Assembly (NCBI GenBank): GCA_000227525.2
Contig: AGIG01000028.1
Span: forward strand, 248,001-312,000
Origin: a gamma proteobacterium HIMB30
Lineage (GTDB): Bacteria; Pseudomonadota; Gammaproteobacteria; Pseudomonadales; Litorivicinaceae
Direction of reading: 5' to 3'
Length of the DNA stretch: 64,000 bases
Below the pieces are notes generated by a model, which was given only the letters and a program-made list of their open reading frames with translations, did not search any database and was not told where the DNA came from. The position numbers were made by a program, and so were the translations under genes. The stretch's first letter is position 1; each line of letters opens with the position of its first letter. Shown here one piece after another: positions 6,690-62,512 of this stretch.

Positions 6690-6708
6690 AACTTAAAGGA
6701 GATAGACC

Positions 6709-6945
6709 ATGCTCAATAGAGATGCGTTTAATGACATCGCCACGAAAATTTCTGAAGCGTTGCCAGAACCTGCTCGAAAAATGCAGGCCCAATTTAAGCA
6801 GCAAGTCGAAGATTTAATCGCGCAAGGATTGAAAGATCTCAATGTTGTAACGAGAGAAGACTACGACAAACAGACTGAAAAGCTGTCAAAAGCTGAAGCA
6901 AAATTAGCAGAACTCGAAACACGGCTCGCTGCACTCGAGAAATAA
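6709..6945 (+). CDS. ubiK: Ubiquinone biosynthesis accessory factor UbiK
   Basis: A 78-residue BMFP-type protein (YqiC/UbiK family). It has an N-terminal amphipathic segment and a C-terminal trimeric coiled coil (about 50-77, heptads in KLSKAEAKLAELETRLAALE). UbiK assists aerobic ubiquinone synthesis, working with UbiJ, and ubiJ is also present here at 35.7 kb. The start follows AAAGGAGATAGACC, a strong ribosome site. It is divergent from glnK, and the dnaE2 control region begins 32 bp after it. Confidence 0.92.
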   Translation: MLNRDAFNDIATKISEALPEPARKMQAQFKQQVEDLIAQGLKDLNVVTREDYDKQTEKLSKAEAKLAELETRLAALEK

Positions 6946-6977
6946 GATCTTTGAGCGCACTATGAGGCACTGCATTT

Positions 6978-6997
6978 TACTGTATATAATTACAGTA
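6978..6997 (+). promoter_or_regulatory. LexA (SOS) box overlapping the dnaE2 start and -10
   Basis: TACTGTATATAATTACAGTA keeps both CTGT/ACAG half-sites and differs from the E. coli ideal box only at the centre. It contains a perfect TATAAT (6985-6990) six bases before the ATG and ends on the first base of that codon. LexA binding would cover the -10 and the probable transcription start. No good -35 is visible. Confidence 0.9.
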
Positions 6998-9900: not shown

Positions 9901-10104
9901 GAAGATGAAGATGGACAAATTAATTGCCTTGTCTGGCCTTCTCTCGTGGAAACATTCAGACATCAGATCTTGGCCAGCCGTTTATTGAAAGTGAGGGGAA
10001 AAGTCCAAGAATCTCACGGGGTCATTCATATCATCGCTGATACCCTGGAAGATGCCAGCGAATGGCTTGGAAATCTCACACCAAGCTCTCGTGATTTTCA
10101 CTGA
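6997..10104 (+). CDS. dnaE2: Error-prone DNA polymerase DnaE2 (ImuC)
   Basis: A C-family DNA polymerase alpha subunit of 1035 residues used in SOS-induced mutagenic lesion bypass. It opens with FAELCCTSNFTFLTGASHPEE, which is the DnaE2-type PHP start, has the catalytic acidic cluster Asp370/372/374 (PDIDVDFEHH, the DnaE2 form rather than the DnaE PDFDIDFC form), helix-hairpin-helix segments near 740-880, and an OB domain at the C-terminus. No Shine-Dalgarno precedes the ATG, which lies at the predicted transcription start. The usual imuA and imuB partners are not adjacent. It converges on tolC with a 7 bp overlap. Confidence 0.95.
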   Translation: MFAELCCTSNFTFLTGASHPEEYVMRAHTLGYSGIGVTDEASVSGAVRAHLASQTLNIPMVHGSRFRIDEQLELTFLAPNRKAWGELGQLISLARRRSSKGAYQLTRRDLIGHTDTLLCLWHPHPQALDWTSQIESLSYAFRGRFWIAAHLPESGHQADLAERIDLTAFEWNLPVVATQRPLMHIRQRLKLQHTLTAIRLGAPIIEIADQLERSSERTLMDQHGLKLRYPSAWLHESLNLLDRFDFSLSNLRYEYPQEICPPQYDSEQAFLRDLVFEGAKRRWQQGIPDNITRLIEKELTLIEEMNYACYFLTVHDIVAYARSQNILCQGRGSAANSVVCYCLFITEVDPSRVSVLFERFVSKERNEPPDIDVDFEHHRRDEVIQYIYRKYSKERAALAAAVITYRKRSAIRDVGKALNLPIDLIEALSGSLAWWDKKEAMIERFAELGIDPQGPQIQLLTELVTEILGFPRHLTQHVGGFVISRGPLSELCPIENTAMQDRTCLQWDKDDIDALGLLKVDVLALGMLTAIRGSLELALQYQTTYQPRSGRYQHPPRSIAEIPPEDSLVYDMLCQGDAIGVFQVESRAQLAMLPRLKPRTYYDLVVEVAIVRPGPIQGDMVHPYLRRRDGVDPKEEQPKQISQVLDRTLGVPIFQEQVIQLVMVAAGFSAGEADALRRAMATWKAGNGLFHFHEKIVSGMLERGYSREFAERLCHQIEGFGKYGFPESHAASFALLVYLSAWIKCHLPAAFYCGLLNAQPMGFYTPSQLLQDAKRHGIDIRPIDVNASEWLSTLEDAEGSPCVRLGLHLIKGLRFEAANALVRARRHPFQNLNDFRSRTGLLTRDLEVLASAHAFRSLTDNRFDSFWQLGDQESQLPLFQGAIQAVEDFRPRIPVLGETLVADYQTTGLSLEAHPMNLLRNKSAFRTCRRSSELDRLPRHPDLRIWVAGIVATRQRPGSASGVVFITLEDEDGQINCLVWPSLVETFRHQILASRLLKVRGKVQESHGVIHIIADTLEDASEWLGNLTPSSRDFH

Positions 10105-11390
10105 ATCAGGTACCGGTTGATTCGCGCAATTGCTGACTCGGACAGATCTCCAATGGCTTGGTCGAATTGCAATTGTCGAATGACATGAGTGTGTCGTGCC
10201 TTTGCGAAATCACGTTCTGCAGCAAATAAATCCTTTTTCGCATTTAACACCTCGACGATATCACCTGATCCAACCGCATAGGCGGCCTCGGTCGCTTCAA
10301 CACGACTCGCTGCAGAAACAATCGCCAACTGTCGAGCTTCCACAGTGCGCGCACTCGCCTCGAGATTACGAAACGCTTTCTGCATACTCGCGCGAACTTC
10401 ACGGCGGACTTTCGCTAAGTTCGCTTCTGCTCTGATGACATTGGCTTTTGCCACATCAACCTTTGCAGCAGCAACACCGTTGGTATAGATCGGTGCAGAC
10501 AATGTCACACTCAGAACATTACTTCGCGCACTGGCATTGGTCGCTGCTGTATTACTGCCTGACGTATCAGATATGGAAAAAGTTGACGATAAAGCCAGGG
10601 TCGGATTGGTCTCAGCGCGCGCTTCATCAAGGTTTGCTAGCGCACTCTGGTAACTCTCTTGTTCAGCGATCACGTCAGGGTGTTGATCGACTGACATCTC
10701 AAGCTGATCATCCAATGATCGATGAAGATCTGCCGCGAAGCCCTCTCCCAAATCCAAAAGATCAGGAATTGAGGTATCAACAAATTGCTCGAGATCTGAT
10801 CTCGCAGTATCCAGTGCAACCTCTGCACTAATCAAACCCACCTGAGATAAATCCAACTGTGCTCGCGCCTGATCCACATCAACCCGCGTCCCGATGCCGA
10901 CAATTAAACGTTCAGATGCTTGCTCCAACTGGCGCTCAAATGCCTCAACTTCCGCTCGGGCTGCAAGCAAATCCTGCTCCGCCGACAACACAGCAAAATA
11001 TCGATCCGTCACCGAAATGATATGCGTCTGCCGATACGCGGCTAACGACGCGTCTGCCTCGCGAACCGCCGCGTCCTGACTTTCGATTTTGGCATCCAGC
11101 CCTTGATCATATAAAGGCAGACTGAGGGTCAGTGACAGGGTACCTGTTCGATACACATCGTCACTCTTAAGATTCTGAGTTCCCTTTCCAGACACTGACG
11201 CACTCGCACTCAAACCACGACCGCGACGAACCTGTTGCCCCAATGCCACTGACGCGTCACGGGTTGCAATCTGAGCCCGCAACGCCGGATCATTGGCGAC
11301 CGCTAAATTGTAAATATCGGATAAATTTTTGGACTCTGCCATGGCGCTACCCGCCAGGACGAGACCTAACGCAATACTACAGATGCGCAT
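10098..11390 (-). CDS. tolC: TolC-family outer-membrane efflux protein
   Basis: A 430-residue outer-membrane channel of the TolC family, forming a trimeric barrel and periplasmic alpha tunnel for drug efflux or type I secretion. A signal peptide is visible (MRIC start, hydrophobic core, cleavage after AMA at about residue 18), followed by two OEP repeats rich in long coiled helices. I prefer the ATG at 11390, behind GAGG, over the in-frame start at 11450, because it gives a clean signal peptide. It begins 10 bp after hemE and probably shares its transcript. Confidence 0.92.
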   Translation of the reverse strand: MRICSIALGLVLAGSAMAESKNLSDIYNLAVANDPALRAQIATRDASVALGQQVRRGRGLSASASVSGKGTQNLKSDDVYRTGTLSLTLSLPLYDQGLDAKIESQDAAVREADASLAAYRQTHIISVTDRYFAVLSAEQDLLAARAEVEAFERQLEQASERLIVGIGTRVDVDQARAQLDLSQVGLISAEVALDTARSDLEQFVDTSIPDLLDLGEGFAADLHRSLDDQLEMSVDQHPDVIAEQESYQSALANLDEARAETNPTLALSSTFSISDTSGSNTAATNASARSNVLSVTLSAPIYTNGVAAAKVDVAKANVIRAEANLAKVRREVRASMQKAFRNLEASARTVEARQLAIVSAASRVEATEAAYAVGSGDIVEVLNAKKDLFAAERDFAKARHTHVIRQLQFDQAIGDLSESAIARINRYLIQ

Positions 11391-11400
11391 GATGTCGACC

Positions 11401-12477
11401 TCAATGTGAGCCGGAATGAATCTCGCGGCTAATTCGTTGTATTGCTTCAATCATGGTGGCAGGCCGCTGAGGATCAACGTGCTGGTTGATACCGTGGCCC
11501 AAATTAAACACATGGCCCAGGTTCGGACCGAAGCTTTTCAGAAGTCTCTCCACCTCAGATGTAATCAATGCATCAGACCCGAACAAAACAGACGGATCAA
11601 GATTACCCTGCAGCGCGACCTGTGATCCGACTCGCTCCCGGCAACGACCAAGATCAACGGTCCAATCAAGCCCCAACGCATCGCAACCTGTGGCTGCCAT
11701 TTGCTCGAGCCATGCGCCGCCACCTTTGGTAAACAGGATCACTGGAACTTGTTGTCCCTCAGATTCACGAACCAAGCCGGCGACAATTTTTTGCATGTAG
11801 TAAAGAGAAAACTCACGATAGGCAGGTTCCGTCAAAACTCCGCCCCACGTATCAAAAATCTGTACCGCCTGTGCACCAGCGGCGATCTGCGCGTTCAAAT
11901 AATCCGTGACAGCGGTCGCAAGCTTTTCGAGTAATACGTGAAGCGCGTCTGGATCTGAATACATCAATCCTTTGGCATAGCGGTATTCTTTTGATCCTCC
12001 ACCCTCGATCATATAGGTCGCCAACGTCCAAGGGCTTCCAGAGAATCCAATCAATGGCACACGGCCGTTGAGTTCGCGACGAATCGTTGTCACCGCATTC
12101 ATCACGTAATCCAATGCATCTGCCATCGACGGAACCGGGAGCGCATCGATGTCTGCACGTGTTCTCACAGGACGCTCAAAACGCGGACCTTCGCCAGCCT
12201 CAAAATAGAGACCACAATCCATCGCATCAGGAATCGTCAAAATGTCAGAAAACAGAATCGCTGCGTCAAGTGGATAACGCTCAAGCGGCTGCATCGTGAC
12301 TTCACAGGCGAGCTCTGCATTTTTACAGAGGCTCATAAAGTCACCTGCAACTTTTCGGGTCGCCCGATACTCTGGCAAATAGCGCCCCGCCTGACGCATC
12401 ATCCAAACAGGTGTTTGATCGACAGGTTGGCGGAGCAATGCTTTTAAAAAACGATCGTTTTTTAATGCCGACATCAT
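11401..12477 (-). CDS. hemE: Uroporphyrinogen decarboxylase
   Basis: It decarboxylates the four acetate side chains of uroporphyrinogen III to give coproporphyrinogen III in heme synthesis, in the cytoplasm. The 358-residue protein has the family signature [12 protein letters not shown] near residues 27-38 and the [10 protein letters not shown] segment. The start ATG overlaps the metY stop by 4 bp (ATGA), so the two are translationally coupled. In the Pseudomonas order I remember, hemE follows gltD directly. Confidence 0.97.
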
Positions 12478-13745
12478 ACCAGCGATAGGGCCTGATCGAG
12501 ATCAGCCAAAATGTCATCGATGTGCTCGATACCTACGCATAAGCGAATCATTTCAGGCTTCACTCCCACCGATAGTTGTTCCTCATCCGATAACTGTCGA
12601 TGCGTGGTCGATGCCGGATGACAGGCTAATGAACGCGCATCACCGATATTGACAAGACGCTTGAACAAACCAAGCGCATCGTAGAATTTCACACCCGCAT
12701 CAAAACCACCTGTCACGCCAAAAGTCAGAAGTGCTGAAGGCGTACCTCCAAGCTGACTCTGGGCTAGCGCGTGATGAGGGTGATCGGGCAACCCTGCATA
12801 ACTGACCCACTCAACCTTTGAGTGCGCTTGCAAGAACTCCGCAACTTTCTGGGCGTTCTCGCAGTGTCGCTCCATCCGAAGATTCAGGGTTTCAATACCC
12901 TGTAAAAGGAGAAAGGCATTCATTGGAGCAAGTGCCGCACCAGTGTTACGAAGCGGTACAGTACGCGCCCGTGCAATGAAAGCGGCAGGGCCAAATGCAT
13001 CTGAATACACAACGTCGTGATACGCAGGCTCAGGTGCAGTCATTCCAGGGAACTTATCTCCCTGTGCAGTCCAATCGAAGTTACCACCATCAACGATGAT
13101 TCCGCCCAATGAGTTGCCATGGCCTCCCATGAACTTCGTCAGCGCGTGCACAACAATGTTTGCACCCAATTCAATTGGCTTACAGAGCGCTGGAGTGGCA
13201 ACCGTATTGTCAACGACCAGAGGCAACCCATTACGAGACGCCATCGCAGCCATTGCGCGAATATCGACGATGTTACCGGCTGGATTACCAATGGTTTCGC
13301 AATAAATCGCGCGTGTATTTTCATCGACCAACTTTTCCAAGTCTTCCGCACGGTCAGTTTCAGCGAAACGCACTTCAACACCCTGGCTCGGCAACATGTG
13401 CGCGAACAGCGTGTAGGTTCCGCCGTACAGTTGCGGTGTCGTCACAATGTTGTGGCCGTGACTGGCAAGTGTCTGCAATGCGTAAGTGATTGCCGCCATT
13501 CCCGATGAGACAGCAAGCGCGGCAATGCCACCTTCAAGAGCCGCAACGCGTTGCTCTAGCACATCACATGTTGGGTTCATGATGCGGGTATAAATATTGC
13601 CTGGGACTTCAAGGTTAAATAGCGCCGCCCCATGCGCTGCATCATCAAACTCAAACGCCACATTTTGGCAAATCGGTGGAACGACCGCCTTGGTTGTTGG
13701 GTCGGTTTGATACCCCGCATGGATCGATAGTGTTTCGTCGCGCAT
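12474..13745 (-). CDS. metY: O-acetylhomoserine (O-acetylserine) sulfhydrylase
   Basis: A PLP enzyme of the Cys/Met metabolism (gamma family) that makes homocysteine from O-acetylhomoserine and sulfide. The 423-residue length and the internal insertion after the lysine match MetY rather than the shorter MetB/MetC/MetZ. The PLP-binding lysine is Lys204 ([12 protein letters not shown]), and [11 protein letters not shown] and YGGTYTLF surround the cofactor. A GAGGG site precedes the ATG. It sits between gltD and hemE, which are neighbours in Pseudomonas as I recall, so it looks like a local insertion into a conserved order. Confidence 0.93.
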
Positions 13746-13818
13746 TCTCGTTGCCCTCTTATCGTGTATTTCTAAAAACGCTCTGTGTAATCAAGATTCT
13801 GTCAGGAATCCAATATCT

Positions 13819-15264
<1,446 letters not shown>

Positions 15265-18200
15265 CTACTGCGCACCTGACCTCGATGACGCCAATAAATC
15301 ACCCAAACTTGCGGCCTTCGGCTTCACAAGCCAAAACTGACTGACGAATGACTCGAAATCAGAAAGGATGGTTTGCCCCCACTGACTACCGGTCGCGTCC
15401 GCATAGTCACGAATCTGAGACCGCAGGTGTGCACGATACTGCTCCATCTGCTCAGTGCTGATACGCGTAATTTCGACCAGTTCGTGGTTATAGCGATCAA
15501 CAAAGGTCCGTGACTCATCAAGCACATAGGCGAATCCTCCGGTCATACCGGCGCCAAAGTTACGGCCAGTATTCCCAAGCACGATCACTAAACCACCAGT
15601 CATGTACTCACAACAGTGATCACCAGCGCCCTCAACAATTGCTGTTGCACCTGAATTACGCACAGCGAAGCGTTCACCCGCTCGACCTGCCGCGTACAAC
15701 GTTCCACCAGTTGCACCGTATAAACAAGTATTACCAATAATCGATGTGTCTTGGGTAACAAATTGTGAGCCTATCGGTGGTGCGATCACAAGTCGCCCGC
15801 CAGCCATGCCTTTACCAACATAATCATTGGCATCACCGCGCAAATGCATTTCCAGACCAGGCGCGTTAAATACTCCAAAGCTCTGGCCAGCCGTCCCAGA
15901 CAAATTCAAGCGTATCGGGTTGACCATTCCTTCTCGACCATGAGCCAATGAAATTTCACCCGACACGGTCGCACCGACGGAACGATCTTGGTTTGTAATT
16001 TTGAACTCAAACTCACCGCCTGTTCCAGAAGCAACTGCGTTAGCTGTTACCTCAACGATAGCCCGGTTCAATGGCGCCTCATCATAGGGCGGGTTCTTCT
16101 CAACCGCACACAGTTGTGGTTTACCCTCGTGTTCTGGTCCTTGGTAAAGAACGGGCGAGAAATCAAGTTTCGCCTGGCGCTGCGACCGACCCCCAACCTG
16201 CGTTAACAGGTCAGTTCGACCAACAAGTTCGGCCAAAGTCTTCACACCGAGTTCGGCCATCACTTCCCGCGTCTCTTCAGCCACAAAGGTGAAGAAATGC
16301 TTGATCATCTCAACCGTTCCACGGAAGTGTTGCTCCCGCAGCAGTTCATTTTGTGTGGCCACACCGGTTGCGCAGTTATTCAAATGACAGATGCGCAAAT
16401 ACTTGCACCCCATCGCAACCATGGGTGCTGTACCAAAGCCGAAGCTTTCAGCGCCTAAAATTGCAGCCTTGACGACGTCTACACCCGTTTTTAATCCGCC
16501 GTCAGTCTGCAAACGGACCTTGTCACGCAAATCATTCGCACGCAGTGCCTGATGCGCCTCCGAGAGACCCAGCTCCCAGGGAGAGCCCGCATACTTAATC
16601 GATGTGAGAGGGCTTGCTGCAGTACCGCCGTCATAGCCCGAAATCGTAATTAAATCTGCGTAGGCCTTAGCGACACCCGCTGCAATCGTTCCAACACCTG
16701 GTTCACTCACAAGCTTGACTGAAACCAACGCTTTAGGATTAACCTGTTTCAGGTCAAAGATCAGCTGTGCCAAATCTTCGATCGAATAGATGTCGTGATG
16801 CGGTGGTGGTGAGATCAGTGTCACGCCAGGTACTGAATGGCGAAGCCTCGCAATCAACGCATTCACCTTTCCACCAGGTAACTGCCCACCTTCCCCAGGC
16901 TTTGCGCCCTGGGCGACCTTAATTTGCAAGACCTCGGCATTCACCAGGTAATGCGGGGTAACACCAAATCGACCTGATGCGATCTGCTTGATCTTCGAGA
17001 CACGGCTGGTGCCAAAACGCTCGGGATCCTCTCCGCCTTCGCCAGAATTGGAACGCGCTCCCAGTTCATTCATGGCTTGAGCCAAGGCCTCGTGTGCCTC
17101 TGGGCTCAGAGCCCCTAACGACATACCGGCAGAGTCAAACCGCTTCAGAATCGATTCGACAGGCTCCACTTCGTCAACAGTGATTGCTCGACCAGCATCT
17201 TTTTCAAATTTCAACAAATCGCGCAATGTCGCAACTGGACGCTCATTCACCAGCTTCGCGTACTTTTGGTAAGTCGAGTATGAGCCCGTCTGTACCGCTT
17301 GTTGTAATGTTTGAATCACATCCGGGTTGTATGCGTGATACTCACCGCCATGCATATACTTCAAGAAACCGCCCTGAGGAACGGGCTTACGTGTTGACCA
17401 AGCCAGAGACTGGCGAACCTTTTGGTCATTTTCGAAGTCAGAGAAATCTGCACCAGCGATTCGGCTTTGTACGCCTTTGAAGCAGAGATCGACGATGTCA
17501 TTCGACAACCCGACAGCCTCGAACAACTGCGCACCACGGTAACTGGCAATGGTCGAGATACCCATCTTAGACAAGATCTTCAACAATCCCTTATTGATGC
17601 CTTTGCGGTAATTCCGATGCAACTCAAGCGGATCACCAACGATTTCATCCGCCTCAACCAAGTCATTGATCACACGGTAAGACAGATATGGATAAACCGC
17701 GGTCGCACCAAATCCAAGAAGTACTGCGAAATGATGGGAATCGCGTGCCTCAGCAGTATCAACGATGATATTTGCAGAGCAACGCAACCCTTCCTCTATC
17801 AGCCGGTGGTGTACTGCGCCTGTTGCCATTGTTGCAGACACGACCCACTGATCCTCAGTCACATGACGGTCTGAAAGAATCAGCAAGGTCTTTCCTGCGC
17901 GAACCGCATCGACAGCTTGCTGACACACGGACTCAACCGCAGCCTTCAACCCAAGTGTTGGCTCGAATGCCAACTCGATCTGGATCCGACCATATTTTGA
18001 GTGATCAAAGCCTTTGAGGCGATCCATCTTAGGTGCCGACAATATTGGAGAATGCAAAATAACGCGTTCGGCGTGGTCGGCAGTCTCTTCAAACGGATTC
18101 AACTCCATACCCAAGCATGTTTCCAAGCTCATCACTATCGATTCACGCAGAGGATCAATCGGTGGGTTGGTCACTTGAGCAAATTGCTGCCTAAAATAAT

Positions 18201-19713
18201 CGGCGACGTGGCGCTGTTCGGTTGACAGCACCGCCATCGGTGTGTCATCACCCATCGAACCCACAGCTTCTTGGCCAGTCTCAGCCAACGGTTTGATGAC
18301 TTGGTGACGCTCTTCGCTCGTCAAACCAAAGAGTTTCAAATAGGGCGGCAAGCCGCGTTCTGACAATTTCTTGAGATCAGAAAACGGATCCTTCATCTCG
18401 GTTTCGAAGCGAATCGTTTGCTCCCGTAACCACTGTTTGTAAGGCTGACGACCCTTCAGGTGATGATCAATATCATCGGCAGCCAACATTTCACCTGTTT
18501 CTGTATCGATCGCTAAGATTTCACCCGGTCCAACGCGGCCCTTTGCAACCACATCTTCTGGCTTGTAATCCCAGGTTCCGATTTCGGAAGCAAGTGTTAG
18601 ATAACCATTATTGGTCTTGACCCAGCGCGCTGGACGGAGCCCGTTACGATCGAGCAAACAACACGCATAACGACCATCTGTTAGAACAATCCCGGCGGGG
18701 CCATCCCATGGCTCCATGTGCATGGAGTTGTATTCATAAAAAGCACGCAAGTCTGCGTCCATGTCGTCCACATTCTGCCACGCAGGTGGAACGAGCATTC
18801 GGATCGCACGGAATAAATCCATGCCTCCAGCGACCATGACCTCAAGCATGTTATCCAGACTCGATGAATCCGAGCCGGTTGAGTTGACTAATGGAAGAAT
18901 CTGATCGATGTCCGGCAAGCGATCTGACTTGAACAGATGGCCACGCGCATTGGCCCAGTTTCTGTTCCCTGCGATCGTATTAATCTCGCCATTGTGCGCA
19001 AGTAGTCTAAATGGTTGTGCAAGCGGCCAGCGAGGCAGTGTGTTGGTCGAGAACCGCTGGTGGAACACGCAGATTGCCGTGGCCATCAGTGCATCGTTCA
19101 AATCCGGATAGAAGTTCGGCAGATCGACGGGCATCATCAATCCCTTATAAGAGACGACGCGGCGTGAAAGCGAACACAAATAGTTCTCTGGGTTCGACGC
19201 GATCGATCGCTCAATCAGTCGAGAGGCCATGAACAATTCGTTATCAAATTGCTCCTTACTCTGCCCTTGAGGCTCAACGAATACCTGCTTGAAAACCGGC
19301 ATGTTTCCGCGGGCAATGGGGCCCAAATTCGTTGGATCAACTGGTACATCACGCCATCCAACGACGGCCAATTTCCTGGAATTTAGCGCATCCTCGATTG
19401 CCGATATTGCCTGTGCTTCGGCGTCTGAATCATTCGACAGAAAGAGCATTCCCACCGCGAACAAATCACCTAACTCAACGCAAATTGCATCTTTGGCAGC
19501 GCGACGCATGAAAGCATCAGGCATCTGGAACAACAGGCCACAACCGTCACCAGTTTTGCCATCAGCAGCAATCCCGCCACGATGCGTCATGCGCGTCAAC
19601 GCCTCAATTGACGTCATGAGCAAATCGTGACTTGCTTCGCCTTCGCTATGTGCGATCAGGCCGAAACCACAGTTGTCTCGAAATTCGCCAGGCGTATAAA
19701 GACCTTTAGCCAT
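15265..19713 (-). CDS. gltB: Glutamate synthase, large (alpha) subunit
   Basis: It converts 2-oxoglutarate and glutamine to two glutamates. The 1482-residue protein has an N-terminal class II amidotransferase domain; Cys15 in DNCGFGL should become the N-terminal nucleophile after propeptide removal. The central and FMN-binding synthase domains follow, then the 3Fe-4S cysteines in [12 protein letters not shown], and a C-terminal GXGXG beta-helix with glycine repeats. TAGGA precedes the ATG. With glnA, glnK-amtB and ntrBC also present, the window covers the whole ammonium assimilation route. Confidence 0.98.
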
Positions 19714-19757
19714 AATTTTTTCCTACCATTCACGACCAAACGGCCGCAACCCCAAGT

Positions 19758-19780
19758 AAAACGGGACGACGCACGTCCCG
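19758..19780 (-). terminator. Terminator-like hairpin in the gltB leader
   Basis: On the minus strand CGGGACG pairs with CGTCCCG around a 5 nt loop and is followed by four Ts. It ends about 44 bp upstream of the gltB ATG. It could end the pil-aro-DamX transcript or act as an attenuator of gltBD. The T-run is short. Confidence 0.5.
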
Positions 19781-19811
19781 CCGAAATCACACAACGAACC
19801 CAGCGAACCTG

Positions 19812-19842
19812 TCTAAAAGCTCGAGCTGTACGTCCGTGTCAA
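19812..19842 (-). promoter_or_regulatory. Candidate sigma-70 promoter for gltBD
   Basis: A perfect TTGACA (minus strand, 19842-19837) is followed after 18 bp by TTTTAG, a weak -10. Transcription would begin near 19806 and pass through the leader hairpin. The -10 is poor, so this is tentative. Confidence 0.35.
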
Positions 19843-19934
19843 TTGGGCTCAACCGACTGAATCCCTGAAGAAAAAGGCCGCGTAGTATATGTCTCCAGCG
19901 GCTGTGGAGCAAATTTAAAATACGCGTTGAAAGG

Positions 19935-20753
19935 TTACTGCTTATTCGGCGTTAAGGGAATCATCGTTGGTTTCGACGGGATCCCATCAGCATTATTCAT
20001 TTGCACAAAAATAAAGATTGCGACACAGACAGCGATTACAATACCCAAACCGATCGCGACACTCGAAGTCGCCGAGTATGATACCGAGACTTTTTGTTGA
20101 AGCACTGCCTCCACATCACTCTCTATGATTCGATCATCACCAGAAGCCGCCCTCAGCAACTGTTTCGGATGCATCGCGAATTGCTGTAACAACTGAGGTG
20201 CCCTCGCTGTAATTTCGAGATCCGGATGAAGCGCAGTACAGGCTTCCTCAAGATCATGTTGATCCCAGCGTGGTAACAACACCGTACTGGATAGCGCCGG
20301 TTTCGGCTTTAATGCCTGAAGCTGGGACACCAGGCCATCCTCCCCAACCAACAAAACTGACCAACGGCGACCATAGGCGCCAGCACTGAGTTCTTGAAAT
20401 AATCGAAGGACGTCACCAGGCAGGCGATGCGCATCATCTACGATAATCTCGGGAATGCCCTGCTCGGTCCCCGCCTGATGCTTATTTTGCAGACGAGCCA
20501 GCATTTCCAGATCCGTTCCTTCGGGACGCAAACCGGCTAAACCGATCAATCGAAGGATCGCATCGGTACGATCTGATAATAATTCACCGTCGAGCAAAAG
20601 TGGATTGACAGTACTCGCCAAAATAAGCGCCTCGATGACAGTGCTTTTACCCTGACCAGGCGCACCAATCATCACGATCAATCGTCTCGCCCAACGAACA
20701 GCCGAGCGAATTCGTTCGATACAGGCCTGTTGCGATCGGACTAGCTGCAGCAC
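19935..20753 (-). CDS. AAA-type ATPase, DamX-like, without SPOR domain
   Basis: A 272-residue protein with a Walker A motif GAPGQGKS near residue 31, a Walker B (EIIVDDAHR), and a single C-terminal membrane helix at about 226-250 followed by only about 20 residues. The gene between aroB and gltB in relatives encodes a DamX-like protein, which in E. coli ends in a peptidoglycan-binding SPOR domain and localises to the division septum. Here that domain is missing. It overlaps the aroB 3' end by 13 bp. The role is probably cell-envelope or division related, but this is inferred from position. Confidence 0.75.
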   Translation of the reverse strand: MLQLVRSQQACIERIRSAVRWARRLIVMIGAPGQGKSTVIEALILASTVNPLLLDGELLSDRTDAILRLIGLAGLRPEGTDLEMLARLQNKHQAGTEQGIPEIIVDDAHRLPGDVLRLFQELSAGAYGRRWSVLLVGEDGLVSQLQALKPKPALSSTVLLPRWDQHDLEEACTALHPDLEITARAPQLLQQFAMHPKQLLRAASGDDRIIESDVEAVLQQKVSVSYSATSSVAIGLGIVIAVCVAIFIFVQMNNADGIPSKPTMIPLTPNKQ

Positions 20754-21817
20754 GCGTTGAGTACATCATTAAGTAAATCAGACGGCACCTGCTCCTCAAC
20801 ATAGGCATTGCCCAAAGACTTCATCAAAACAAAGCGAAGGCGCCCATCGATATTTTTCTTATCAACGGCCATGTGTGTCAGGAAGTCATCAACGGTCATT
20901 CCGTTTGGCGGCCGTACTGGAAGATTTGCACGCTCACACACAGTGACGATACGCGTAACATCTGACTCTGCAAGCATCCCCATGGCTTGTGATAGACGCC
21001 CGGCCAACACCATACCTGCACCAACAGCTTCGCCATGAAGCCAACCACCGTATCCAAGATGCGCTTCGATTGCGTGGCCGAATGTGTGACCCAAGTTCAG
21101 TAGTGCACGAACACCACCTTCCCGCTCATCACGAGCAACGATCTCTGCTTTCATCTGGCATGATCGCTCAATTGCGATCGACACAGTCTCTGTGTCTTTC
21201 GCCATCAATAACTGAATATTGGCTTCGATCCAGGCCAAAAAATCTTGATCACCCAATAAACCATACTTAATCACCTCGGCCATGCCAGCGGACATTTCTT
21301 TTTGCGGAAGTGTTTCTAAAACATGCGTATCGATGAGAACAGCGATCGGTTGATGAAATGCTCCGATCATATTTTTCCCGAACCGATGATTGACTCCTGT
21401 TTTTCCGCCAACAGACGAATCAACCTGCGAAAGGAGCGTAGTGGGAATCTGAACAAAGTCGATGCCACGCTGATAGGTTGCAGCAGCAAAGCCAACCATA
21501 TCTCCGATAACACCGCCCCCTAACGCGACCATCGTGGCATTTCTCGAAAATCGCTTCGTCAGTGCTTCTGAAAAAATGAAATCGAGGGTATCGATTTGTT
21601 TGTATTGTTCACCATCTTGCAAAACCACCGTCGCTACATCGAAGCCCTGTAGGGTCGAAAGAACGCGATCAAGATAGAGGGGGGCAATGCAGTCATTGGT
21701 CACCACGAGAACCTGACGACCTCGAATAACACCAGCCAAGTGATCTGAATCAAGCAGACCGTCTCCGATATGAATTGGATACGCACGATCGCCCAAATCA
21801 ACATTAAACGTTCTCAT
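20741..21817 (-). CDS. aroB: 3-Dehydroquinate synthase
   Basis: The second enzyme of the shikimate pathway, turning DAHP into 3-dehydroquinate with NAD and a divalent metal. The 358-residue protein has the NAD-binding GGGVIGDMVGFAAATY segment, the SQVDSSVGGKTGVN catalytic loop, and metal ligands in GLGHTFGHAIE-like NLGHTFGHAIE. The ATG at 21817 is preferred over a TTG one codon earlier. It overlaps aroK by 14 bp and the DamX-like gene by 13 bp. Confidence 0.97.
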   Translation of the reverse strand: MRTFNVDLGDRAYPIHIGDGLLDSDHLAGVIRGRQVLVVTNDCIAPLYLDRVLSTLQGFDVATVVLQDGEQYKQIDTLDFIFSEALTKRFSRNATMVALGGGVIGDMVGFAAATYQRGIDFVQIPTTLLSQVDSSVGGKTGVNHRFGKNMIGAFHQPIAVLIDTHVLETLPQKEMSAGMAEVIKYGLLGDQDFLAWIEANIQLLMAKDTETVSIAIERSCQMKAEIVARDEREGGVRALLNLGHTFGHAIEAHLGYGGWLHGEAVGAGMVLAGRLSQAMGMLAESDVTRIVTVCERANLPVRPPNGMTVDDFLTHMAVDKKNIDGRLRFVLMKSLGNAYVEEQVPSDLLNDVLNACCS

Positions 21818-22343
21818 CAATCTGCCTCTCTATTTGTTCCATAATTTGGCGCACGACAACCGATGGATTGGTCCGTCGCGTTTGTACCTGTATGCTCGAA
21901 AACCCGCGATACAGAGGCTCGCGCTCCGTCGCCATGGCCCTTAACTTCGCTTTTGGATCGGCTACCTGTAATAGCGGCCGATTTTTATCATTTTTTAGAC
22001 GGTCAAACTGTGTTTTCAGATCAGCTTGCAACCAAATGACATGCGACTGATGGCGTTTTAATAACTCTTGATTTTCACGACGTAAAACAACCCCAGCGCC
22101 AGTTGACACAACAACAGCACCCTTGTCGACAAACTCTGCAAAGATACGTGCCTCACGATCACGAAAGCCCATTTCACCTTCAACATCGAAGATCCATGGA
22201 ATATCGGCTCCGCAGCGTGCCTCAATTTCTTCATCCAAGTCGAGAAATGGTACGTTCAATTTGGTCGCGAGCAACCGACCGACAGTGGTTTTGCCGGCAC
22301 CAGTTGGACCGATCAATATCAGTGGAAACGAAATGTCTGCCAT
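21804..22343 (-). CDS. aroK: Shikimate kinase
   Basis: It phosphorylates shikimate at the 3-hydroxyl with ATP. The 179-residue protein has a P-loop GPTGAGKTT at about 12-20, the DLDEEIE segment that binds shikimate and magnesium, and a GFRDREA region with the substrate arginine. It lies directly after pilQ (10 bp) and overlaps aroB, the conserved pilQ-aroK-aroB arrangement. Confidence 0.97.
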   Translation of the reverse strand: MADISFPLILIGPTGAGKTTVGRLLATKLNVPFLDLDEEIEARCGADIPWIFDVEGEMGFRDREARIFAEFVDKGAVVVSTGAGVVLRRENQELLKRHQSHVIWLQADLKTQFDRLKNDKNRPLLQVADPKAKLRAMATEREPLYRGFSSIQVQTRRTNPSVVVRQIMEQIERQIDENV

Positions 22344-22353
22344 GAAACCTCAG

Positions 22354-23517
22354 TTAAAGAACGCGGGGCGTGATGAATATTAGCAGTTCTGATTTGAAGG
22401 CTCGACGCTGACTTGATTGAAATGCGCGACCAATCAAAGGAATCGAAGACAAACCCGGAATGCCAACACGAATGTTTTCTTCTTTTGATTCGTAGATCCC
22501 GCCGAGCACCAAGGTCTCGTCAGGATCGACAGTCACCCGTGTATTGAGTTCGCGCGTCTCGATCACCGGACCTTGCTGGGTCGTTAGTTGACCGACCTGA
22601 TCCTGCCGAATATCTAAAGTCATTTCGATCCGTCCATCATCACGCAATACTGGCGTCACTTTCAGTTCGAGGACTGCGTCCTTAAATTCAGTCGATGTAC
22701 GCCCTTCGTTATCAACAGTCACGAACGGCAGTTGCTGTCCTTGGCGAATGGTCGCGGCACGACGGTTTGTAGTCACGATCCGCGGCTCTGAAATCACCTC
22801 GCCAATGCCTGATGATTCGAGTGCTTGTAATTCGAGAGCCAACAGCTTTGGATCAGAAACAAATGCGAGAGAGAGCGCTGAACGACCCAACTCATCGCCA
22901 AGCCCAACGGTTTCTCCTTGAACACCTGAACGTCCCACTTCATTAGTCGCAAAAGACCATCGAATGCCAAGATCTCGACGTCTATCCGTGTCTTGCGATA
23001 CTAACTTTGCCTCGATCAAAATCTGTTTGACTTCGATATCAAAGACTTGGACGAGGTCTCTGATCGACGCAAGATCCGTTTGGCTGCCGCGCAGAATCAA
23101 ACGGTTTGTCTCAGGATCAGCAATAATCGACACAGTGTGACCAAACTGAGTCTTCCAGTCACCAAGCAAGTCCAATACTTGATTGGCCTCACGATGTTTG
23201 AGTTCAATCACCAAGACGCTTAGGTTTTGACTGATCGGCGCAAGCCGATAGCCATCACTCAGTTTTATGGCCTGTAATGATGATGCCTTCGCAATGAGCT
23301 CAATCGCGTGATGATAATCAGAAACAGTGTGATCAAGTGAAATCAGCGGATTTGTGCCTTGAGGCACCTCGACTGCAACACCTGATGCATCTGAAAACAT
23401 GGCAACCACCTCCTGAAGTGGTGTGTCATCAAACGATAAAGGAATCGGATCAGCAGCACACACCCACGCGGACACGAACCACAGAATCCAACTCATCAAG
23501 CGCTTTGTTTGACGCAT
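22354..23517 (-). CDS. pilQ: Type IV pilus secretin PilQ, unusually short
   Basis: The outer-membrane secretin through which type IV pili emerge. After a signal peptide (MRQTKRLMSWILWFVSAWVC start) there is an STN-like domain (about 25-90), one secretin N-domain (about 95-165) and the C-terminal secretin barrel domain ending in the usual ELLIFITPRVL. At 387 residues it is roughly half of typical PilQ (about 700), lacking AMIN domains and one N-domain. I chose the ATG at 23517 over the in-frame start at 23577 because it begins the signal peptide. It overlaps the upstream pil gene by 22 bp. Confidence 0.88.
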   Translation of the reverse strand: MRQTKRLMSWILWFVSAWVCAADPIPLSFDDTPLQEVVAMFSDASGVAVEVPQGTNPLISLDHTVSDYHHAIELIAKASSLQAIKLSDGYRLAPISQNLSVLVIELKHREANQVLDLLGDWKTQFGHTVSIIADPETNRLILRGSQTDLASIRDLVQVFDIEVKQILIEAKLVSQDTDRRRDLGIRWSFATNEVGRSGVQGETVGLGDELGRSALSLAFVSDPKLLALELQALESSGIGEVISEPRIVTTNRRAATIRQGQQLPFVTVDNEGRTSTEFKDAVLELKVTPVLRDDGRIEMTLDIRQDQVGQLTTQQGPVIETRELNTRVTVDPDETLVLGGIYESKEENIRVGIPGLSSIPLIGRAFQSSQRRAFKSELLIFITPRVL

Positions 23518-24218
23518 ATTCGCCCCAGTGAATTTTTGAAAATCAATTGTTGATCCCGGTAGGCCAAAAACCGCCAATCTTGGTTAAGCCAATCCCCAAC
23601 CTGTAAGCGCTGGATTTGAGACGGATTGATCTCAACCAGAAGCCAATCTGCTAACCGCGCTTTGACAACTGGCGCTGGACAATCGATCAGTTGGCCAAAT
23701 TCAAAATCATTCGGCAGTTCCAAAGCTGAAATGTCGACTGAATGCCAACGTACACGCTCTTCAGGGATCAGTGACAAGCGCAGAGTGATTCGCCTATCAG
23801 CGGACTGGACGTTGATTGTGTCGACCGTTAAACCAGAGACATGACCCAACAGGCGGTAGAGCTCTAACGGGTTCGACTGATCTGTGACGTCAATATCAAT
23901 CACCCAACGATCAACTGAGGCTTCGACGCGCAATATGTTTCCGCTCTCACGCAGTCGATTTGCCAACGATGTCGCATCAAGCGTTCGGATATTTGCTCGC
24001 AGGCCAATCAGTCTCTCATCAAGGCGTCTTCGCCGGTCTTCGAGCGATTGCGCCCGCGTCGTCTCAGACCGCAGATCACGCTGCTCGATCAGCCGCTCAA
24101 CATATTGATCAAAGGCTGGTTTCACAATCCAAAACCCTAGCCCGCAACTCACGCATAGAAACCAGAACACCAGCAAGAGATTGGTATATCGAACAATCCA
24201 CATCGAATAGCTATCCAT
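23496..24218 (-). CDS. Pilus assembly protein, apparent PilO-PilP composite
   Basis: A 240-residue inner-membrane protein with one N-terminal membrane helix (about 10-30), a coiled coil (about 35-75) and an alpha/beta periplasmic domain, as in PilO. The C-terminal 60 residues (RLADWLLVEINPSQIQRLQVGDWL onward in part) resemble the small beta domain of PilP, which contacts PilQ. No separate pilP gene exists between it and pilQ. A PilO-PilP fusion is my inference from order and pattern; homology is weak by eye. It overlaps pilN by 8 bp. Confidence 0.65.
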   Translation of the reverse strand: MDSYSMWIVRYTNLLLVFWFLCVSCGLGFWIVKPAFDQYVERLIEQRDLRSETTRAQSLEDRRRRLDERLIGLRANIRTLDATSLANRLRESGNILRVEASVDRWVIDIDVTDQSNPLELYRLLGHVSGLTVDTINVQSADRRITLRLSLIPEERVRWHSVDISALELPNDFEFGQLIDCPAPVVKARLADWLLVEINPSQIQRLQVGDWLNQDWRFLAYRDQQLIFKNSLGRICVKQSA

Positions 24219-58368: not shown

Positions 58369-58641
58369 ATGACGAGAATAGTTTTCTGCCGAAAATACCA
58401 ACAGGAATTATCTGGCTTGCCTGTGCCTCCTCTTCCTGGTGCAGCTGGACTTGATATTTTTGAAAACATCTCAGAAAAAGCATGGAAAGAGTGGCAGAAC
58501 AATCAAACGATGCTTATCAATGAACATCGACTCAGCTTGATGGATCCGGATGCTCGGAAATTTCTGACGCAAGAAATGCATCGTTTTTTTGATAACCAAG
58601 AATATGCAAAACCTGAGGGATATGTTCCACCTTCAAGTTGA
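58369..58641 (+). CDS. yggX: Fe(2+)-trafficking protein YggX
   Basis: A 90-residue protein protecting iron-sulfur clusters from oxidants, with Cys7 in the FCRKYQQEL start. It follows mutY by 9 bp with its own GAGG site. MutY contains an Fe-S cluster, and the two genes are generally linked. Confidence 0.96.
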
Positions 58642-58666
58642 CAGCGTTCCAGTATTTCTGTTCAAT
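58638..58666 (+). promoter_or_regulatory. Sigma-70 promoter of tRNA-Phe
   Basis: TTGACA (58638-58643), a 17 bp spacer and TTCAAT (58661-58666), followed by a GC-rich discriminator as in stringently controlled stable RNA promoters. The -35 overlaps the last codons of yggX. Transcription should start near 58673, 12 bp before the tRNA. Confidence 0.75.
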
Positions 58667-58684
58667 ACGCGGCCTACTCTTAGA

Positions 58685-58746
<62 letters not shown>

Positions 58747-58760
<14 letters not shown>

Positions 58761-58840
58761 TTAGCATCTCTGCAAACTCTGCAAGTTACTGAAATGTCTA
58801 CACAAACCTACTCAGGCTGTGATGGTGGTAGACAATGCAG
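58747..58840 (+). repeat. 94 bp inverted repeat IR1, left arm (integrase leader)
   Basis: Identical at every base to the reverse complement of 60574-60667. It contains the att core, a tandem CTCTGCAA pair (58768-58775 and 58777-58784), two TGTCTAC heptamers, and the first two codons (ATG CAG) of the integrase gene. Confidence 0.97.
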
Positions 58841-59968
58841 TATACAAATCCTAAGTACACTTATCGCAAAGATGGTGTGTTCTATTTCTCTAAACAAGTT
58901 CCTAATGACGTTAGGTCTTATTACTCAAAGCAACGCATTGTTCTCTGTCTTAGAACCAAGTCACCCAGTCAGGCGCAACAGGCATCTAAAGCTGTCTTAG
59001 CCAAGCTAGAAGACTACTGGTTAAAGCTCCGCATTAAGGACTTGGATGTACCTGCATCACACCTTCTCAATGAATCTTTGTCTGTCACAGCGGGTATGCC
59101 TACGATTGAAGATGCACTGAACCTATATCTCGACATCAAGGGTGTTGGACGCAGTGAGCTGTTCTTCAGAGCCGCTAAACGCAATGTCAGATACCTAGTC
59201 ACCGCTCTAGGCGTTAAGAGCTTGGACAAGTACTCCACCAATGATGCGTCTAAGTTCAGAGAATGGTTAATCAAAGAGCAGAAAGTCGGGACATCTTCTG
59301 TCGGCAGAGTCTTTGCATCCATCAAGGCCATCACCAACTTTGCCATCAATGAGCTTGGATTAGACATTAGGAATCCATTCTCCGGTGTCTATATCCCACC
59401 ATCAGATGCACAGAAGCGTCACGCCATCAGTATTGAGAACATCAGAAAGATACAGTCAGAGTGTTACCAACAGGATGATGAACTCCGTCACATTGTTGCC
59501 CTTATCTCCGATACTGGGATGCGTCTAGCAGAAGCTGTTGGCTTACATCAGGATGACTTGGTGTTAGATGCTGATGTGCCTTACGTACAAGTCCGTGAAC
59601 ACACTTGGAGACCTTTGAAGACATCGACCAGTCACAGAGTCATCCCGCTTGTTGGAGCTTCTCTGTGGGCGGCTCAGCGTATAAAACAGAATGGTTCTGA
59701 ATATTGTTTCCCACGCTATACCGATGGAGTGAAATGCAACTCCAACTCTACATCTGCCGCACTCAACAAATGGATTAAACAGGTGGTCGGTTCAGGCAAT
59801 GTCATCCACGGCTTCAGACACAGCTTCAGGGACAGGCTCAGAGCTATATCAGCACCTATAGATATGATTGACCAGTTAGGTGGATGGAGTCTGCAGAGTG
59901 TTGGACAGGCCTACGGTGACGGCTATAGCTTACAGGTAATGGGGCAGGCAATGAGTCAACTTACGTAA
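58835..59968 (+). CDS. int: Phage-type tyrosine integrase
   Basis: A site-specific recombinase of 377 residues. The N-terminal YTYRKDGVFYFSKQVPNDVR segment resembles the DUF6538-type arm-binding domain, a core-binding domain covers about 90-185, and the catalytic domain has Arg230, Lys262, His325, Arg328, Trp351 (in the His/Trp position) and Tyr360. Adjacent to tRNA-Phe and reading away from it, it presumably integrated the element there. Its start codon lies within the 94 bp repeat. It converges on the GST-like gene with a 13 bp overlap. Confidence 0.95.
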   Translation: MQYTNPKYTYRKDGVFYFSKQVPNDVRSYYSKQRIVLCLRTKSPSQAQQASKAVLAKLEDYWLKLRIKDLDVPASHLLNESLSVTAGMPTIEDALNLYLDIKGVGRSELFFRAAKRNVRYLVTALGVKSLDKYSTNDASKFREWLIKEQKVGTSSVGRVFASIKAITNFAINELGLDIRNPFSGVYIPPSDAQKRHAISIENIRKIQSECYQQDDELRHIVALISDTGMRLAEAVGLHQDDLVLDADVPYVQVREHTWRPLKTSTSHRVIPLVGASLWAAQRIKQNGSEYCFPRYTDGVKCNSNSTSAALNKWIKQVVGSGNVIHGFRHSFRDRLRAISAPIDMIDQLGGWSLQSVGQAYGDGYSLQVMGQAMSQLT

Positions 59969-60579
59969 ATTGGGCTTGGATTATCGACATAACCCATCCA
60001 ACACCTCCAACCTTGAGTGAGTTTCAACGCTTCAAAGTACGCACTTAGAGCAGTCGTGGACAAAACATCGCACCTTATAGCCCTTGCAATCACGGGACTA
60101 AACCAAGCATCTGCGATAGACAAATGACCGTAGAGAAATGGCCCATCAGATTGCTGTAAAAGTTTATCTAGACGTTGCATCCAAGTAAGTAAATCAGAAT
60201 GGGCGATTAGAGTTTCCGCATCCAATGACAAATCCATAGGTACTGCTTTGCGTAAAGCGTCTGAGGTTGCCTGAAATTCCAAACATAGACTTCTAGCATT
60301 GGCTCTATCAGCACTAGATTTTGGCCAATTCAGCCCACCTAACTCTGCCAATGTTTCTGCAATTGCAAAACTCTCAACGATTCCATTCGCATCATGCATG
60401 TAAAGAACAGGGACTTTGCCTGTAGGGCAGCCGGATGCGTCAGCCAATCTATCGTTGACGTCAAATGTTCGCCAATCAATGGTCAAAGATTCTATCAATG
60501 GGCTTGCGCAAAGAAATGCTCGCATTGACCAACTAGATTGGCTTGCTGTGCCTAGGATAAGGCGTACTGCGTTCTGCAT
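59956..60579 (-). CDS. Glutathione S-transferase-like protein
   Basis: A 207-residue protein with a thioredoxin-like N-terminal domain (about 1-78; SWSMRAFL at the catalytic helix, GKVPVLYMHD with the cis-Pro, and ESFAIAETLAELG for the gamma-glutamyl contact) and an all-alpha C-terminal domain. The fold suggests glutathione conjugation or detoxification; the substrate is unknown. Its start codon and second codon lie in the right arm of the 94 bp repeat, so its leader is identical to that of the integrase. It is cargo of the element. Confidence 0.82.
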   Translation of the reverse strand: MQNAVRLILGTASQSSWSMRAFLCASPLIESLTIDWRTFDVNDRLADASGCPTGKVPVLYMHDANGIVESFAIAETLAELGGLNWPKSSADRANARSLCLEFQATSDALRKAVPMDLSLDAETLIAHSDLLTWMQRLDKLLQQSDGPFLYGHLSIADAWFSPVIARAIRCDVLSTTALSAYFEALKLTQGWRCWMGYVDNPSPIYVS

Positions 60580-60667
60580 TGTCTACCACCATCACAGCCT
60601 GAGTAGGTTTGTGTAGACATTTCAGTAACTTGCAGAGTTTGCAGAGATGCTAATGGTGGCCAGAGAG
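60574..60667 (-). repeat. 94 bp inverted repeat IR1, right arm (GST leader)
   Basis: Perfect reverse complement of 58747-58840. On the minus strand it reads att core, arm, ATG CAG of the GST-like gene. Confidence 0.97.
60653..60667 (-). repeat. att core 2 (inverted, internal)
   Basis: The same 15 bp core in opposite orientation. It is the exact overlap between IR1 right arm and IR2 left arm, so 60574-60900 on the minus strand reads P arm, core, P' arm like a complete attP. Confidence 0.92.
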
Positions 60668-60900
60668 TGGATAGATGCTTACCTAAGGCTCCATAGACCA
60701 CTGATGTCTACCTAGAATCAAAGACTTACACATCATCAGTTCATCTACAACAGCACTGTTTTGTCTACTCAGTTGTCTACTGTTCAAACTGCATAGCTCC
60801 CCAGTCTATTGTCATAGCCCAGGGTGGTCTTTTTTAGACACCCGGGAGCGGCTGAGTCGGCTTTTAAGTATTTGTAGTAACTGCTGAGGCTTGTTAAAGG
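60653..60900 (+). repeat. 248 bp inverted repeat IR2, left arm
   Basis: Identical to the reverse complement of 62151-62398 along all 248 bases by my line-by-line reading. It contains three TGTCTAC heptamers (60705, 60762, 60774) and an imperfect hairpin around a T5 loop near 60818-60846. Together with IR1, the gene-free stretch 60580-61003 is fully described by these repeats apart from the last 100 bp. Confidence 0.97.
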
Positions 60901-60923
60901 GTGGGCTGAGTCAGGCTCATAAC

Positions 60924-61001
60924 ATGTTAAACGCTACTGAACGGGATAGGGCACTAGTTCTATTGTGCAGTATTCTGTTAGTGGTGAAGCTTAAAGAATA
61001 G
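60924..61001 (+). CDS. Possible 25-residue hydrophobic peptide
   Basis: An ATG-started frame of 25 codons with a polar N-terminus (MLNATERDRA) and a hydrophobic centre (LVLLCSILLVVKL). AGG lies 7-9 bases upstream. It is just inside IR2 and converges on the secreted-protein gene. Short frames like this occur by chance, so support is weak. Confidence 0.2.
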   Translation: MLNATERDRALVLLCSILLVVKLKE

Positions 61002-61003
61002 AC

Positions 61004-61543
61004 TTAATAGCCTCCTGGGATTCCTGGGCATTGTTCAGTCAAATCTAAAAAAGCGCGGTCATATCTCTTCTTTGTCATGTAGTCGGGTAGTTGAATTTTG
61101 ATTTCACTTTGAGGTCCGACAGTGAGTCCAAGAAAAGCTGCACCCATACGCAATTCATCCTCACTTTCAAATGTATGATCGTAACGAATCTCCCTTAATC
61201 CTTTTTCTCCATAAATCTCAAACCTAACAACATCGTTGACATAATCTGGTTGATACACGGCTGACCGCCAATTCGCCTTACTTAAATCGTAGGTGATATA
61301 GAGTTTTTGAATTGCGTGTGAATACAGACCACCGTCTGTTTCGAATGATATTTTGCATCCGTCGACAACAAGATTTTCAATGCCTGCCTTCATAAAGCCA
61401 TCATTACCAAACAACATAAAGCCGAAAGCTTTACCAACTACAAGTGGGTTAGGGCCGCTATCGTGGATCACCGCCGCATTCACGGTTTGCGTATTGTGCA
61501 GCCAGAGCGCGAGCATGAGAGGAAGGCATAAACGCGTTGTCAT
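61004..61543 (-). CDS. Secreted protein of unknown function
   Basis: A 179-residue protein with a clear signal peptide (MTTRLCLPLMLALWL ... VNA, cleavage near residue 23) and a mature part with many beta-strand-like stretches, two cysteines (CKISFE and EQCPG) and a C-terminal PGIPGGY. I do not recognise the family. No good Shine-Dalgarno is visible before the ATG at 61543. It is the only substantial gene between the 248 bp repeats, with about 600 bp of non-coding DNA upstream. Confidence 0.65.
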   Translation of the reverse strand: MTTRLCLPLMLALWLHNTQTVNAAVIHDSGPNPLVVGKAFGFMLFGNDGFMKAGIENLVVDGCKISFETDGGLYSHAIQKLYITYDLSKANWRSAVYQPDYVNDVVRFEIYGEKGLREIRYDHTFESEDELRMGAAFLGLTVGPQSEIKIQLPDYMTKKRYDRAFLDLTEQCPGIPGGY

Positions 61544-62150
61544 GATGTATCAATAACACGAACCTCACCAATGCTTCAAATCGATGGCTTTCCCAATAAC
61601 CGTCGCTAACTAACGCCCTGGAGGAACCATTTAGCTGGTCAATTATCTCTGTTTGGAAATGAATTAATAATTGAGATTGTCGGCAATACCGCTAGTGCTA
61701 TATAGCCCTTAACACTCTTACAATAGGAGTTCCTGCATAGACTGCTACAGCTCCTTAATCTTTCCCATTACCCATAACAGGATTAGAGATGTAGTATGCA
61801 TAGGGCAGTGCAGGCCTATGAACCTTTACCAGTTCACTGTATTCCCGTAATACCCATCATTCTCATATCTTAGAGATAGAGACAGTAGAGCTTCAGAGCC
61901 TTGCAAAAACTCATAATATCCAGAAGTAAATGCCTTTAATTCAAAGCCTCTAGAGTACCCATATGGATACATCTTTTATTCATATATCACCTGATATAGA
62001 TCAAGAAATAGTCTTGCTATTTGAAACCACGATGAACCAATGGAGTGCATACTGAACACATGCGGTAAGGGAGGTTTCCGCTTGCCACTTGGGAACGTTT
62101 ATAGAGTCGATTATGGATGGTTGGCTGAACGTCCCTGTTTTTTATTTTAG

Positions 62151-62398
62151 CCTTTAACAAGCCTCAGCAGTTACTACAAATACTTAAAAGCCGACTCAGC
62201 CGCTCCCGGGTGTCTAAAAAAGACCACCCTGGGCTATGACAATAGACTGGGGAGCTATGCAGTTTGAACAGTAGACAACTGAGTAGACAAAACAGTGCTG
62301 TTGTAGATGAACTGATGATGTGTAAGTCTTTGATTCTAGGTAGACATCAGTGGTCTATGGAGCCTTAGGTAAGCATCTATCCACTCTCTGGCCACCAT
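62151..62398 (-). repeat. 248 bp inverted repeat IR2, right arm
   Basis: Perfect reverse complement of 60653-60900. Its outer end is the attR core. TGTCTAC heptamers on the minus strand at 62271-62277, 62283-62289 and 62340-62346. Confidence 0.97.
62384..62398 (+). repeat. att core 3 (attR)
   Basis: Direct copy of the 15 bp att core at the tRNA end; marks the distal end of the element, 3.64 kb from attL. Confidence 0.88.
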
Positions 62399-62413
62399 GG
62401 TCCATACGGTCCA

Positions 62414-62465
62414 TACCTGACACACGGGTAACATTTTATTCCGAGGACATAGGTAACACTTTTGA
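62414..62465. mobile_element. Possible insertion-sequence end remnant
   Basis: Two spaced copies of GGTAACA followed by TTTT (62427-62437 and 62451-62463 region), separated by CCGAGGACATA, are reminiscent of the terminal repeats I associate with IS481-type elements. No transposase is present. The identification is from memory and weak. Confidence 0.3.
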
Positions 62466-62512
62466 TGAACAAGGGTTATCTACCTAAGCGATCCGGTCGT
62501 TGTCCCCAGCGA

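Follow-up and report, generated by a model that had tools for sequence, protein, structure and literature searches.

In the textbook case, an integrative element has a single attL and a single attR attachment site. Islands that are integrated into tRNA genes by lambda-type integrases carry the integrase gene (int) beside attL, the attachment (att) core is the 3' end of the tRNA gene, attL and attR are direct repeats, and arm-type repeats are present. A small element at the tRNA-Phe gene of the window, i.e., of the whole stretch of 64,000 nt that was analyzed, resembles these islands in all of these points. It differs from them in that an extra complete attP site lies inverted behind int and that the inverted repeats are long and near-perfect, both of which are absent in control integrases. 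As judged from genome comparisons, the inverted attP is a hallmark of the DUF6538 integrase family and not unusual for it, and we regard the layout as a variant of tRNA-integrating elements.

Tycheposons are likewise small, marine, tRNA-associated elements with a tyrosine recombinase and cargo genes, and we know of no report of an inverted attP in them. The strand-biased circularizing integrative elements of Vibrio (SE elements) are also marine and have tyrosine recombinases and inverted end motifs, but the latter are imperfect 19-bp motifs only, two integrases are present, and no tRNA target is mentioned (PMC9345347). Instead of their intA-CDS2-intB-CDS4 block with 19-bp C/C' end motifs, the element of the window has one integrase and a tRNA core. 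In the fim, R64 shufflon and PsrA/hsdS switches, which tyrosine recombinases operate, a segment lies between inverted sites, and a flip changes the gene that follows a fixed upstream region. The window also has a segment between inverted recombinase sites, but these are full attP, attL and attR sites, int lies inside the segment, and the flip is a prediction. The yeast 2-micron plasmid (FLP/FRT) has 599-bp repeats, and its tyrosine recombinase gene lies beside one of two identical, inverted, target-bearing repeats (PMC3147054). The same arrangement would result here if attL and attR were joined to a circle, but the elements sit in tRNA genes and have arm-type attP sites, and any replication origin in them is hypothetical. 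Taken singly, the ingredients (islands in tRNA genes, segments that can invert, the 2-micron circle) are known, while the combination seems to be undescribed: in the literature searched, which did not cover subscription papers, no island with an inverted attP was found and the name DUF6538 was not used.

The 15-bp core CTCTCTGGCCACCAT occurs three times in the window and nowhere else in it (exact match), and its orientation alternates (+, -, +; Table 1). Two perfect inverted repeats are anchored at the cores, one of 248 nt (60653-60900 and 62151-62398, 100%) and one of 94 nt (58747-58840 and 60574-60667, 100%). The repeat tool lists the latter as 102 nt at 97%, and its 3 mismatches are in the 8 nt on the tRNA side. 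The minus strand from 60900 to 60574 is an exact attP of 327 nt, composed of 233 nt armB, the 15-nt core and 79 nt armA. Thus, both the alternating cores and the internal inverted attP of the original prediction were confirmed to the base. An integrated element usually, though not by strict definition, has attL and attR only; here, the first and the third core repeat the 3' end of the tRNA gene in direct orientation and bound the element, and the complete attP lies between them. A chance origin of the repeats is excluded. The element is single-copy within its genome of 2.17 Mb, and genome G001 (locus L096) has the empty site, with the flank almost directly behind tRNA-Phe. The three cores delimit two segments: segment 1 contains int and a gene for a protein similar to glutathione S-transferases (GST), and segment 2 contains an open reading frame (ORF) of 179 aa.

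The motif GTAGAC was found five times within the 312 bp of the window arms, versus 0.14 expected from shuffles, and is a putative arm-type binding site of the integrase protein (Int). One of the copies overlaps the ribosome-binding and start region of int and, via the repeat, that of the cargo gene. GTAGAC pairs with a spacing of 12 bp, about 101-126 bp from the core, are present in six elements from both bacterial classes.

The layout is not confined to the window. An inverted copy of the core and armA, i.e., of the stretch upstream of int, was found downstream of int for 26 of the 32 full-length DUF6538-family integrases with downstream sequence, and for 22 of the 24 with an adjacent upstream tRNA gene. 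Among 20 control ORFs, which were picked by position and motif and are mostly other tyrosine integrases (a few may not be integrases), one had an inverted copy, and it proved to be a family member (L255), so that the value for non-family controls is 0 of 19. The remote relatives L087-L089 lack an inverted copy, and none was found for the partial integrase genes L197-L199 and L203-L208, all of which are truncated remnants or ended by the contig. The copies start at the core and usually stop 4-9 nt past the ATG of int. Many elements carry int alone in segment 1, and in such int-only elements the inverted copy begins 0-9 nt after the int stop codon.

Six kinds of tRNA genes are hit (Phe, Gly, Arg, Leu, Thr and Ser), in Gamma- as well as Alphaproteobacteria. 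Within the window's family, elements at tRNA-Arg, -Gly and -Leu also have the inverted copy, and so does a different family (G220), in which L120 has an 80-bp perfect repeat right behind int and L121 has one of 82 bp. In the alphaproteobacterium Ruegeria sp. TM1040, the complete megaplasmid NC_008043.1 carries an element with cores at 1635(+), 2957(-) and 14388(+), an armA repeat of 85 bp and an outer repeat of 1148 bp, both 100% identical. It surrounds a type I restriction system, and an identical BRO-family gene lies twice, in opposite orientation, inside the outer repeat (L140; record positions 586363-586938 and 596707-597282). The one-contig genome G790 has several elements with alternating cores at tRNA-Thr, -Leu and -Ser, and a further element at tRNA-Leu(caa) turned up blind among the controls. 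The largest repeat was found in G905 (cores 628+, 1958- and 13431+), where an outer repeat of 3183 bp without mismatches duplicates a 633-aa gene. The integrase was detected at E<=1e-60 in 29 of 396 genomes of the Roseobacteraceae (the family of G628, as judged from the Ruegeria match), while in Gammaproteobacteria it was found in 1 of 377 genomes, the window's own. Taken together, a widespread marine integrase family has a second full attP mirrored behind int in two bacterial classes; tRNA genes of six kinds are targeted, and the perfect repeats reach up to 3.2 kb.

The two copies bear signs of recombination with one another. Within an element, the identity of the armA copies is mostly 0.95-1.0, compared with 0.65-0.91 to the nearest other element, which means that the copies either evolve jointly or are of recent origin. 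In G790, the imperfect outer repeats have 1 mismatch in the first 531 bp and 0 in the first 306 bp, respectively, and mismatches accumulate farther out; an equally extreme polarity away from the core did not arise in any of 20,000 permutations. In addition, the repeats remain identical past the putative arm sites (about 130 bp), and a constraint on the sites alone is therefore not sufficient as an explanation. An exchange that is initiated at the core, e.g., an Int-made Holliday junction migrating into the arms, would fit these patterns best.

Two reversed states were found among the relatives. The int of L035 is 94% identical to the window int, and the order at this locus is tRNA-Phe, core, armA, a gene for a LysE-type exporter directly behind armA, int on the opposite strand, and then inverted armA, core and armB. 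By its gene order, L035 thus carries segment 1 in reverse and with another cargo, the exporter being next to tRNA-Phe. L093 has kept the full +, -, + layout, with one mismatch in the third core, a decayed int, and a DUF218 protein, a lipoprotein and a cytochrome c as cargo; segment 2 (cytochrome c gene, spacer and armB) is oppositely oriented in L092 and L093. The DUF218/lipoprotein pair is also present in L082, which is at tRNA-Gly, while L093 is at tRNA-Phe, and in the comparison of the two, arms and cargo are retained and the core follows the tRNA. In the window as well as in L035, L093 and L082, the start codon of the cargo gene immediately follows armA. In L072 and L075 the cargo is even fused in frame to the first about 20 int codons; cargo behind the int leader thus indicates that the leader sometimes serves cargo expression.

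We consider it probable that the locus is a small tRNA-Phe integrative element with the inverted attP typical of the DUF6538 family, and that Int recombines the internal attP and thereby homogenizes the copies. Recombination of attL with the internal attP would invert segment 1, and that of the internal attP with attR would invert segment 2. Excision via attL and attR would yield a circle on which the internal attP and the newly joined one are identical and inverted relative to each other; these two could then recombine, and the circle could re-integrate through either of them. Strand exchange that began at the cores and was carried into the arms would keep the copies identical. The common leader would allow either gene to lie behind the tRNA, with the int-next-to-tRNA state predominating. 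Elements of this family can thus probably flip parts of themselves. If Int acts on the sites in this way, elements could invert their cargo, be integrated in both orientations or be amplified. Flipping would then be intrinsic to a mobile element and not be due to an added, separate switch.

Several points weigh against this explanation. About 22 loci are int-first and 1 is cargo-first, and flipping may therefore be rare. L035 and L092/L093 are contigs of fragmented metagenome-assembled or single-amplified genomes (MAG/SAG) with differing cargo or decayed segments. Gene conversion of the RecA type could homogenize the repeats without Int. A third, direct core was not detected in L120 of G220, L076, L200, L201, L255 and G790 element 2, and therefore not all members are excisable. 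The invertibility of either segment that had been predicted agrees with the reversed states of segment 1 in L035 and of segment 2 in L092/L093; the inversion itself is inferred, and segment inversion would leave the same sequence as re-integration via either attP.

The original prediction had gone further and proposed a two-state expression switch, in which Int flips segment 1 and places either int or the cargo gene behind the tRNA promoter via the common leader. The cargo starts behind armA, the in-frame fusions of L072/L075 and the cargo-first state of L035 are in accord with it. In addition, no terminator-like site was found between tRNA and int on the plus strand, as had been predicted, and a scan of 58600-62500 for sigma70-like promoters gave 0, compared with an average of 7.2 in shuffles. 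However, the strong int-first bias and the many elements without a cargo gene in segment 1 are at odds with a symmetrical int/GST switch as the general function, and armB and core in front of the inverted armA might hold their own promoter of a type outside the scan. We regard such a switch as rather unlikely, and free 50:50 inversion is ruled out by the bias. A passive structure, i.e., an inverted copy that arose by duplication, is homogenized by RecA-dependent gene conversion and is not used by Int, would explain the bias and the persistence of decayed members. Long inverted repeats are indeed often homogenized. Nevertheless, this is improbable: the repeats are anchored at the core on either side, and conservation of the arm-type motifs extends to both classes. 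Mismatches are polarized from the core, copies as short as 80 bp remain perfect, and the layout recurs at many tRNAs.

A counterpart of the 2-micron plasmid would mean that Int inversion during replication of the excised circle, with its two identical inverted sites, leads to amplification (double rolling circle) or to isomers. The perfect inverted repeats of the predicted circles, 327 bp in the window, more than 1.1 kb in Ruegeria and more than 3 kb in G905, as well as two elements with phrog_4756 proteins bearing polymerase-like motifs, are compatible with this, and int lies beside the repeat like FLP (PMC3147054). On the other hand, scans with family libraries recognized no replication gene in the window element, nor was one recognizable in the Ruegeria and G790 elements, which are fully annotated or near-complete, and the circles are predicted from sequence. 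Moreover, integrases of the lambda type do not usually recombine two wild-type attP sites with each other. This explanation is therefore doubtful, and the design that combines such amplification with re-integration via either site and copy-correction started at the core has a similarly low probability. An assembly or amplification artefact is hardly conceivable, and for the class as a whole it is refuted: several draft contigs do stop beside the repeats, but the layout is present in the complete isolate record of Ruegeria, in the one-contig genome G790 and in many independent assemblies, with differing cores that match differing tRNAs. Three further readings were rejected. Terminal repeats like those of insertion sequences are ruled out because the tRNA core is part of the repeats, which differ according to the tRNA, a feature common to all tRNA integrases is ruled out by the controls (0 of 19), and against a phage origin stands that no viral-contig relative was found and that matches to phage records are distant (28-32%); the best match of the window int among plasmid records is the Ruegeria int (43%).

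The features of the element are listed in Table 1. The DUF6538 domain is N-terminal in the window int, residues R230, H325, R328 and Y360 are invariant in the alignment, and 75 bp separate int from the end of tRNA-Phe. The GST-like protein has weak GST matches below the curated cut-offs and matches GST chain 4mp4_A at E 7.5e-4. The ATG of its gene lies directly behind the same 79-bp leader (ribosome-binding site and ATGCAG) as that of int; both genes have this start in common, as it is part of the arm repeat, and a flip would therefore preserve the translation start. The 179-aa ORF had no match in Pfam, PHROGs and NCBIfam.

Table 1. Features of the tRNA-Phe element in the window, and positions of the alternating cores in genome G790 (RBS, ribosome-binding site).
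Feature	Position	Strand	Basis
tRNA-Phe(gaa), integration target; 3' end is the att core	58685..58760	+	ARAGORN
att core 1, attL side	58747..58761	+	exact match
armA copy 1, int leader; GTAGAC at 58796 and 58828; RBS, start ATGCAG	58762..58840	+	94-nt inverted repeat
Tyrosine integrase (int), 377 aa, DUF6538 and Phage_integrase (PF00589)	58835..59968	+	Pfam E 8.7e-16, 2.9e-14 (PF00589)
GST-like cargo gene, 207 aa, convergent with int, start inside armA copy 2	59956..60579	-	
armA copy 2, inverted, cargo gene leader	60574..60652	-	94-nt inverted repeat
att core 2, inverted, of the internal complete attP	60653..60667	-	exact match
armB copy 1 of the internal attP; three GTAGAC	60668..60900	-	248-nt perfect repeat including core
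ORF, 179 aa, segment 2	61004..61543	-	
armB copy 2, attR side; GTAGAC at 62271, 62283 and 62340	62151..62383	+	inverted repeat
att core 3, attR; then host flank (DUF2452 region)	62384..62398	+	exact match; empty site in G001 (L096)
G790 cores, first set	9396+, 11562-, 18359+		
G790 cores, second set	9489+, 10873-, 17441+, 46226-, 57068+		

A few further observations were made in the relatives. The fused cargo proteins of L072 (10269-11552) and L075 (10297-11604) are alginate-lyase-like, and over about 20 residues at their start they match the N-terminal end of the integrase of the same element because the inverted repeat extends into the coding region. The phrog_4756 proteins of L035 (135-1712, 525 aa) and L075 (8311-9552, 413 aa) have motifs resembling family A polymerases and are possible candidates for replication proteins of these elements. 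Positions 1-100 of L035, at the contig end, are repeated inverted at 1640-1712 beside the 525-aa gene, which represents either another palindrome or an effect of the assembly at contig ends. Many draft contigs end in or beside family integrase genes (G009:C12, G152:C13/C26/C39, G162:C93, G277:C73, G218:C90 and G244:C80), which is above expectation for a 1-kb gene and fits repeated or variable DNA at these sites; the layout may account for the breaking of draft assemblies there.

A protein of about 77 aa (MNKAKLHTDLIEQTLFALSK...) without a family match is encoded beside armA copies in L083 (9141-9377), L076 (9053-9286), L081 (824-1105) and L073 (11596-11829). It was seen at tRNA-Phe, -Arg and -Leu and is a candidate directionality factor or small cargo. 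In G020:C5 (L090 and L091), the reverse complement of 4952-23904 contains seven copies of the tRNA-Phe 3' end, all direct and 0.8-11 kb apart, together with small ORF pairs resembling toxin-antitoxin modules and without an int of the DUF6538 family; this array looks like a tandem accretion of int-less elements.

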